This document shows positions 25,638 through 55,393 of a stretch of DNA of 64,000 nucleotides, in pieces. Each line of letters begins with the position of its first letter. The stretch's first letter is position 1. The position numbers were made by a program, and so were the translations under genes. The DNA comes from Ectopseudomonas chengduensis (lineage in GTDB: Bacteria; Pseudomonadota; Gammaproteobacteria; Pseudomonadales; Pseudomonadaceae): the NCBI RefSeq assembly GCF_900102635.1, contig NZ_FMZQ01000002.1, positions 1 to 64,000 on the forward strand, written 5' to 3'. The notes beneath the pieces were generated by a model that was given only the letters and a program-made list of their open reading frames with translations, did not search any database and was not told the DNA's origin.

Positions 25638-25722
25638 TGGTGCCCCGGGGGAGACTCGAACTCCCACTCCTTTCGAAAACGGATTTTGAATCCGCCGCGT
25701 CTACCGATTCCGCCACCGGGGC
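25638..25722 (-). tRNA. tRNA-Leu (anticodon CAA)
   Basis: The 85-nt gene is on the minus strand. The acceptor stem GCCCCGG pairs with CCGGGGC, followed by discriminator A and an encoded CCA. The anticodon stem GCGGA/TCCGT encloses the loop TTCAAAA, giving anticodon CAA, which reads UUG. A long variable arm and the T-loop GTTCGAGTC are present, as expected for a class II leucine tRNA. A strong promoter and a terminator flank it, so it is a single-gene transcript. Confidence 0.97.
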
Positions 25723-53417: not shown

Positions 53418-55088
53418 TCAGGCCGCTTGCGACTCGGCCTGGCTCAGGGCTCGGTTCAGCGCGCTGAACAGGGCGCGGAAGCTCGCGGTGGTCAGGTTCT
53501 CGTCGATGCCGATGCCGTGCAGGGCGCGACCGCCGTTGACGCGTAGCTCGATGTAGGCAGCCGCCTTGGCATTGGTGCCGGCGCCGATGGCGTGCTCGCT
53601 GTAGTCCATGACTTCCACCGCGACGGGCAGGGCTGCGGCCAGGGCTTCCAGTGGGCCCTTGCCGATGCCGCGCCAGTGGTGTTTTTCAGCGCCCTCGATA
53701 ACCTCGATATCCACCGCGCTGGTGCCATTCTCTTCCTGCAGACGATGCCCTTTAAGGGTGTAGGGGCTGCGCGCTTGCAGGTATTCGGTTTCGAGCAACT
53801 GATGGATCTGCGCGGCTGTCATTTCCAGACCGAGGCGATCGGTTTCGCGCTGTACTACCTGGCTGAACTCGATCTGCATGCGCCGCGGCAGGCTGATGCC
53901 GTACTCCTGCTCGAGCAGGAAGGTGATACCGCCCTTGCCCGACTGGCTGTTCACGCGGATCACCGCCTCGTAGTCGCGGCCGATGTCGGCCGGGTCGATC
54001 GGCAGGTAGGGCACTTCCCAGAGGGCATCTTGCTTCTGCTGGGCGAAGCCCTTGCGGATGGCGTCCTGGTGCGAGCCGGAGAAGGCGGTGTGCACCAGAT
54101 CGCCGACGTACGGATGGCGCGGGTGCACCGGGATCTGGTTGCAGTCCTCGACCACCTTGCGCACGGCGTCGATGTCGGAGAAGTCCAGCTCAGGGTCTAC
54201 GCCCTGGGTGTAGAGGTTCAGCGCCAGGGTCACCAGGCAGACGTTGCCGGTGCGCTCGCCGTTACCGAACAGGCAGCCTTCGACGCGGTCGGCGCCAGCC
54301 ATGACGGCCAGCTCCGAGGCTGCGACGCCAGTGCCACGGTCATTGTGGGTGTGCACGCTGATCAGCACGCTGTCGCGGCGGTCGACGTGACGACCGAACC
54401 ACTCGATCTGGTCGGCGTAGTTGTTCGGCGTGGCGCACTCGATGGTGGCGGGCAGGTTGAGGATCAACTTGTTCGCCGGGGTCGGCTGGAACACACCGAT
54501 CACCGCGTTGCACACCTCGACGGCAAAATCGATCTCGGTGCTGCTGAACACTTCCGGCGAATACTCGAAGCCCCACTGGGTTTCCGGCGCGGCATCGGCC
54601 AGGCGCTTGATGGTGGTGCCGGCGGCTACGGCAATGGCTTTGACGCCGGCCTTGTCCTGGTTGAAGACGATCTTGCGGAAGCTCGGTGCGCAGGCGTTGT
54701 AGTAATGGACGATGGCCTTTTTGGCGCCTTTCAGCGACTCGAAGGTGCGCTCGATAAGGTCGTCACGGGCCTGGGTCAGCACCTGGATGGTGACGTCGTC
54801 GGGGATGTGGCCGCCTTCGATCAGCTCGCGGACGAAGTCGAAGTCGGTCTGAGAGGCGGACGGGAAGCCCACTTCGATTTCCTTCAGGCCCACGGCCACC
54901 AGGCACTTGAAGAAGCGCATCTTCTTCTCGGCATCCATCGGCTCGATCAGCGACTGGTTGCCGTCGCGCAGGTCGGTCGACAGCCAGATCGGCGCCTTGT
55001 CGATGATCTTGTCCGGCCAGGTGCGGTCCGGAATCTGAATCTGGGTGAACGGACGGTACTTCTGCGACGGGTCTTTGAGCATGGTCAT
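53418..55088 (-). CDS. leuA: 2-isopropylmalate synthase (long form)
   Basis: The 556-residue enzyme condenses acetyl-CoA with 2-oxoisovalerate in the first committed step of leucine synthesis. The DRE-TIM barrel shows [31 protein letters not shown] and [17 protein letters not shown]; the C-terminal regulatory domain (about 430-556) binds leucine for feedback inhibition. It belongs to the longer LeuA2 group. ATG 55088 has AGGA 7 nt upstream; a second ATG is two codons in. A short leucine-rich ORF precedes it, suggesting attenuation. Confidence 0.95.
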
Positions 55089-55097
55089 GAGAGGGTC

Positions 55098-55164
55098 CTG
55101 CGAAATGGGAGTCGAACACGAGGCCGGGCGGCCATGAAACGGGGTTTCAGGCGGGGCTTCGCAG
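55098..55164 (-). promoter_or_regulatory. Putative attenuation pairing before leuA
   Basis: On the minus strand CTGCGAA inside the leader ORF (55158-55164, the Leu-Arg codons near its end) is complementary to TTCGCAG (55098-55104), which overlaps the leuA Shine-Dalgarno AGGA (55096-55099). Pairing would hide the ribosome site; a ribosome held on the leader could open it. This is inference from complementarity only. Confidence 0.4.
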
Positions 55165-55221
55165 TCGCGGGCTGACCAGTCGCAGGCATGCGAGCTGGCG
55201 GACGAGAAAGATGTTTTTCAT
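55147..55221 (-). CDS. Putative leucine-rich leader peptide of leuA
   Basis: ATG at 55221 opens a 24-codon frame ending TGA at 55147-55149. The product starts [18 protein letters not shown] and has five leucines and four arginines. GGGTG lies just upstream as a possible ribosome site. It ends 58 bp before leuA. A short Leu-rich ORF directly ahead of the leucine biosynthesis gene is what a leader peptide for attenuation looks like. Bases 55222-55393 beyond it hold no gene; the promoter is probably there, but no clear -35/-10 pair can be chosen. Confidence 0.6.
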
Positions 55222-55393
55222 GTGGGCACCCTATCCATAGCAGGTGGATATGGCAATGCTTGCTTAAAAAACGCCGATTTATTGCTGGATAGCGTTTGCT
55301 GGCGGATTTTATTGCTTTGAAAGGTGCGTTTTCGGCGAATCGTGTTTGTGGGGGCTTGCGGCGGCTCGCCCCTGCACCTCTTATAGTCAGCCT

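Follow-up and report, generated by a model that had tools for sequence, protein, structure and literature searches.

Sequence comparison points to a real leucine leader peptide directly upstream of leuA in Ectopseudomonas chengduensis, one that occurs family-wide and is probably leaderless. We think it rather probable that this peptide serves leucine-sensing attenuation, with the ribosome parked on the last leucine codon beside a possible Rho-entry region. The locus lies on the minus strand of the window, by which we mean the whole 64,000-nucleotide stretch of DNA analysed. A preliminary description had proposed a 24-codon frame running from 55221 to 55147 and holding five leucine codons; it was found exactly there (CTC CTC CTG CTG CTG), its stop codon 58 bp before the ATG (55088) of an ORF that we take to be leuA, the gene for 2-isopropylmalate synthase. 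At the gathering threshold Rfam gave no match in the leader/leuA region of the window. The sole Rfam match in the window at that threshold was a tRNA gene (25641-25722, minus strand). The features of the locus, in order of position, are these:

53418 to 55088, minus strand: leuA, 2-isopropylmalate synthase, 556 aa (best matches in relatives 97-100% identical)
55089 to 55146, minus strand: spacer of 58 nt, C-rich and G-poor (C 43%, G 21%), a possible Rho-entry region
55096 to 55099, minus strand: leuA ribosome site AGGA
55098 to 55104, minus strand: heptamer TTCGCAG in the spacer, present, its proposed role unsupported
55147 to 55221, minus strand: 24-codon leader-peptide ORF, predicted leaderless, opening with ATG at 55221 and closing with a TGA that ends at 55147
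55158 to 55164, minus strand: heptamer CTGCGAA in the leader end, present, its proposed role unsupported
55162 to 55167, minus strand: CGA-CTG, the rare arginine codon and the last leucine codon, near-invariant
55228 to 55233, minus strand: -10 element TAGGGT, 6 nt before the leader ATG
55251 to 55256, minus strand: -35 element TTGCCA, 17 nt before the -10 element (TTGnnn here in 63 of 63 clusters)

Judged from the collected sequences, the ORF is conserved far above chance, and very strongly so. A homologous leader stands 5′ of leuA in 169 of 191 upstream regions, which fall into 63 sequence clusters; its consensus is M(K/N)TxHTLILLRQHxxLxLVSxRLxG. The 191 regions comprise 80 named records, 30 places from the genus search, 80 further genus genomes and the window again; they count the window twice (L001 and L002) and include near-duplicate genomes, and tests were run on one representative per k-mer cluster, 63 clusters in all. 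Where 60 or 61 clusters are given, short spacers were left out (below 40 nt in the pairing and access tests, below 50 nt in the composition test) and, in the access simulation, one further cluster in which the ribosome-site match was missing. A profile search with 16 leaders gave a single match per genome (E ≤ 1e-6) in 239 of the 249 genus genomes, with a leuA match in 246 of them. The earlier reading of the ORF as a leader peptide is thus strongly supported by the conservation of its ATG, leucine codons and stop across Pseudomonas, and with so many genus genomes positive a leader is very likely present in P. putida as well. At the level of the family, by our own count, 88 of the 148 genomes, belonging to 11 of 19 genera, match the profile at E ≤ 4e-9, and a twelfth genus carries a diverged leader (L235, MNISQALFLPKQHLRLQHLVSSRLRN) with a profile score of only 0.023. 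A search of 185 genomes of the class turned up no convincing leader beyond that of the window's own genome; 28 genomes, the window's own included, gave a match at E ≤ 0.1, and the best match outside the genus (E = 0.0017) lies inside a 322-codon open frame and was taken as chance. The four leaders searched against Pfam and NCBIfam matched no model there, in a method whose HMMER filters can drop weak matches.

No leader was recognisable in 22 of the 191 regions. In nine it has been altered by indels (L013, L016, L050, L052, L056, L114, L115, L117 and L121), and in 13 loci, among them Stutzerimonas, Azotobacter and one of two P. fluvialis loci, none is present. A hairpin-rich repeat lies inside the leader ORF of L117 (positions 183-287) and also of L013, L052, L056, L114 and L115; it is in frame in L117, whose leader has 58 residues, and in L056, and shifts the frame in L013 and L115. 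The L117 element is a dispersed repeat, since genome G180 has 26 matches to it at E ≤ 1e-5. In L238 (genome G046) the leader is one base shorter than in close relatives and is frameshifted, with the leuA frame open, a disruption that is either natural or due to misassembly. L247 (genome G255, contig C7) is a second leuA-like gene, 51% identical, beside the leader-bearing leuA of the same genome, and the same pattern search found no leader upstream of it.

As would be expected of an attenuator, a short ORF lies between the promoter and the first gene and is conserved as a translated frame. Among the 63 cluster representatives omega was 0.27 in the leader frame compared with 0.96 and 1.87 in the other two, and pN was 0.164 and pS 0.449 over 18 codons. 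Part of this constraint acts on the peptide, because the arginine and glutamine of the RQ pair are kept (in 62 and 63 of 63 clusters, respectively) with varying codons, four CGN codons and AGG being used for the former and both codons for the latter, and because the relative L241 (genome G260), whose upstream region is AT-rich, retains the peptide MKTYQTLILYRQYCCLNLVAQRLSQFC despite heavily changed codons. Another part acts on nucleotides, because valine is biased to GTC (90% in the leader against 37% in leuA genes) and because the arginine before the last core leucine codon is encoded by CGA in 168 of 169 sequences (62 of 63 clusters); CGA makes up 0.4% of the arginine codons in 91 leuA genes. 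L241 likewise has CGA at this place. The strong conservation of non-leucine residues (RQ, V and R) is more than leucine sensing alone accounts for, a point against the mechanism proposed below.

The leaders also combine a content of the pathway's product with non-preferred codons for it, as amino-acid attenuators do. Each holds four to eight leucines (mean 22%, 63 clusters), and the codons CTG, CTC, CTT and CTA account for 48, 32, 9 and 5% of leucine codons in the leaders compared with 74.5, 17, 1.6 and 0.4% in leuA genes. A long run of leucine codons is a feature of classical attenuators; the leaders have none. From the last core leucine codon to the stop there are two codons in 55 of the 63 clusters, one in three, four in two (the window's cluster among them) and 8-17 in three, and because this codon stands so near the stop a waiting ribosome would, in most clusters, shield the first part of the spacer.

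In all 63 clusters a promoter of the form TTGnnn-17-TAnnnT stands upstream of the leader, its last base 6-7 nt from the ATG. The pattern was picked after inspection of the sequences, and in a slightly looser form it matched none of 1172 random upstream anchors. The usual distance from a -10 element to the transcription start puts the start of the message at the ATG or one base earlier. On the strength of this distance and of the fixed promoter-to-ATG geometry, we predict that the leuA message begins at the leader ATG or one base before it and is leaderless, a feature that the preliminary description did not name. A reading of TAGGGT as a Shine-Dalgarno site was rejected in favour of a -10 box because the variants TAGAAT, TAAAGT, TAACGT and TAGCTT lose AGGG yet keep TAnnnT. 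The promoter can persist where the peptide is missing, since 10 of the 13 relatives without a leader have a similar pattern (spacing 16-18) at 60-72 nt before leuA; several leader-less relatives have ATA where the leader ATG would stand. L097, L098, L102, L104, L105 and L233 keep the leuA promoter pattern without a leader, with ATA in the place of its ATG.

At the level of sequence, the comparison shows a conserved ORF with its promoter geometry and codon bias, a fixed CGA-Leu near the stop, a C-rich spacer and no intrinsic terminator, and the mechanism that we propose is as follows. The sensor would be the ribosome translating the leader at the predicted message start. Under a shortage of leucyl-tRNA it would slow at leucine codons, chiefly at the last one after the rare CGA. 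With enough leucine the ribosome would finish and leave, and Rho acting on the naked spacer would end transcription before leuA or early within it; with scarce leucine, a ribosome parked at the leader end would mask the adjoining part of the spacer, so that leuA would be made. The putative Rho step is the weak one, and the main alternative for the final step is a purely translational effect on leuA. C-rich, G-poor sequence suits Rho. The difference between C and G content in the spacer averages 0.198 with a leader (61 clusters) compared with 0.119 in the 13 relatives without one (p = 1.3e-4, relatedness not corrected), and 0.035 upstream of 34 mechanically chosen window ORFs, leuA included, three of which exceed leuA. 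We regard the C-richness as only suggestive of Rho entry. The spacer of L241, which has a leader, is AT-rich (6 C and 6 G among its 63 bases), and this tells against C-rich DNA being strictly required. The short spacers of two clusters, 30 and 12 nt, are a further point against the Rho step.

The preliminary description had instead envisaged translational attenuation, in which CTGCGAA at the leader end pairs with TTCGCAG over the leuA ribosome site. Both heptamers are present, TTCGCAG sharing two bases with AGGA, but their pairing as a switch was not supported, and we consider this model, whether with these heptamers or in a clade-specific form, to be improbable. Conserved or covarying pairing over the leuA ribosome site, which would mark a translational attenuator, was not found among the clusters: the heptamer segment showed no covariation (longest complement of the leader's last codons with the spacer, cognate 4.66 compared with swapped 4.55 bases, p = 0.195, 61 clusters), and complements of at least 7 bases occurred in 5 of 61 cognate pairs against about 2.7 of 61 expected from swapped pairs. 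The complement is present in 11 of 11 sequences of the window's cluster, a number that counts the window twice, and because both heptamers are identical in all of them there is no compensatory change. With the heptamer picked post hoc, the window's 7-base complement is hardly above chance. The energies of whole duplexes between leader end and spacer do lean weakly toward some cognate pairing (-21.1 compared with -20.5 kcal/mol for swapped pairs, p = 0.035, 63 clusters), and different complements occur in some of the remaining clusters, for instance CTGCCGG/CCGGCAG in two, although CCGGCAG stops 38-39 nt short of leuA and is off the ribosome site. The sign of the effect is awkward too: a stall on an early leucine codon would leave the heptamer available for pairing across the leuA site and so repress leuA in starvation, and the sign is correct only for a stall on the last leucine codon, with which the heptamer begins. 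Simulated access to the window's leuA ribosome site was 0.31 for free RNA, 0.31 in an early stall and 0.25 in a late stall, which is to say no rise in the late stall over the free RNA; it was 0.43 when the ribosome stood at the stop. Across 60 clusters an early stall raised access by +0.071 over free RNA (p = 1.3e-4), but this is not a cognate switch, since swapped leaders behave much alike (+0.047; cognate versus swapped p = 0.45). Alignment folds, made after removal of duplicate sequences and of a single region whose spacer was below 20 nt, and leaving aside a five-sequence short-spacer clade, showed no generally conserved structure: they were better than column-shuffled controls in one clade (z -2.26) and near them in the five others (z +0.92, -1.46, -0.61, -0.19 and -0.45); folded as a single sequence, the window's leader region gave z -1.21.

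Three further explanations have to be weighed. Classical transcription attenuation of the E. coli leuL kind, which works through an intrinsic terminator, concerns the same gene and a similar type of leader peptide, and is nevertheless very unlikely here. Terminator-like sites occurred in 3 of 63 clusters compared with 2.05 in dinucleotide shuffles, an intrinsic terminator with a competing antiterminator of the leuL type was not found before leuA in these regions, and two clusters have short spacers, of 30 and 12 nt, which give little room. Between 54900 and 55700 the window has one terminator-like site on the plus strand and none on the minus strand of leuA, which bears out the earlier remark that no strong terminator hairpin is seen. 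As a general means of control, an intrinsic terminator is unlikely on these sequences. Nascent-peptide arrest would have RQH..L.LVS.RL act in the exit tunnel in a stall that depends on the peptide, possibly together with leucine or a metabolite of the pathway, and not solely on empty leucine codons. The near-invariance of R, Q, L, V, R and L with variable third bases at R and Q, the many residues retained by the strongly diverged L241 and a fixed length (25 residues, shared by 54 of the 63 clusters) all speak for such an effect. Set against this, the conservation is partly at the nucleotide level (GTC and CGA CTG), and repeat inserts lengthen the leaders of L056 and L117 by net 17 and 33 codons, respectively, in frame, which disfavours an arrest motif spanning both halves; taken by itself we find arrest unlikely. 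It is possible, if rather unlikely, that a family-wide arrest peptide on a leaderless message joins RQHxxLxLVSxRL to the CGA-Leu pause, giving a peptide- and leucine-dependent hold in which the ribosome, in place of an RNA hairpin, would block Rho and license leuA. Action of the released peptide in trans, as proposed for Sinorhizobium meliloti peTrpL, would suit both the peptide-level conservation beyond leucine and the predicted leaderless ATG, which would match that of trpL in the available text of PMC7298713. It is highly improbable, however, for a peptide that has no known partner and one copy per genome (E ≤ 1e-6), beside leuA in all 169 regions, these having been fetched through leuA.

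Leucine-sensing attenuation by a leaderless leader, the mechanism that we favour, has partial counterparts elsewhere. Leader-peptide attenuation of leucine genes is established in enterics. As there, in leuL of the E. coli and Salmonella leuABCD genes, a short leucine-containing leader stands before leuA and leucyl-tRNA is the presumed signal (in part from the available text of PMC6123439). Compared with leuL, taken by description only, the Pseudomonas leader is predicted to be leaderless, lacks an intrinsic terminator and has a peptide conserved family-wide, and in the window the ORFs 3′ of leuA lie on the opposite strand. At E. coli tnaC a stalled ribosome occupies the last part of a short leader that adjoins a Rho-entry region. 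The geometry that we propose is alike, with a held ribosome at the leader end and a Rho-entry region adjoining, and it has the right sign, leuA being on in starvation; tnaC differs in sensing free tryptophan through an arrest peptide, whereas the Pseudomonas signal is probably leucyl-tRNA shortage. TnaC stalling is the subject of PMC8429421. In the accessible portions of the respective papers, the S. meliloti trpL leader has its ATG at the first base of the RNA (PMC7298713) and the Corynebacterium glutamicum ilvBNC leader is reported to lack a ribosome binding site (a title cited in PMC4046766), each controlling an amino-acid operon. Both, compared by description, concern other amino acids in other classes or phyla, and are described there as transcription attenuators. 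The same text on C. glutamicum gives a putative leuA leader with four consecutive leucine codons (PMC4046766). The toiL uORF of E. coli topAI resembles our proposal in that ribosome stalling, translation and Rho are all involved, and differs in sensing antibiotics and in having its ribosome site covered by a defined RNA structure (PMC12121999, available text); no conserved structure of this sort was found before Pseudomonas leuA. No description of a Pseudomonas leuA leader was among the literature matches listed, most of the lists being capped; an earlier mention is possible, most likely in the comparative survey of Vitreschak et al. 2004. A literature search with four leader peptide strings returned no paper. 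The main text of PMC8297930 has no mention of leuA, leucine or PA3792, and leuA is absent from the available text of PMC12572303, PMC2864571 and PMC10219788.

The preliminary description also supposed that leucine-dependent ribosome position controls leuA. As a signal this remains plausible, with indirect support from the leucine content and codon bias of the leader and from the behaviour of a P. putida truA mutant; it is a switch by pairing of the heptamers that is not supported. In that mutant the LeuA protein rises 4.2-fold, according to the main text of PMC7822408, which names LeuA twice without explanation and states that TruA pseudouridines aid ribosome selection of leucine tRNAs in Salmonella. 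This rise fits leucyl-tRNA sensing. It may have another cause, because HisC and HisD are also up and the authors, who discuss his leader peptides, found none (PMC7822408, available text), so any link to the leader is tentative. Pseudomonas his genes may, on the same HisC and HisD data, hide a similar short leader. The leuA leader offers an explanation, as a proposal, for the 4.2-fold rise in LeuA. If the mechanism is true, it would be a leucine-control element of a much-studied genus that has no match in Rfam, Pfam or NCBIfam, and would represent leader-peptide control without a conserved hairpin.
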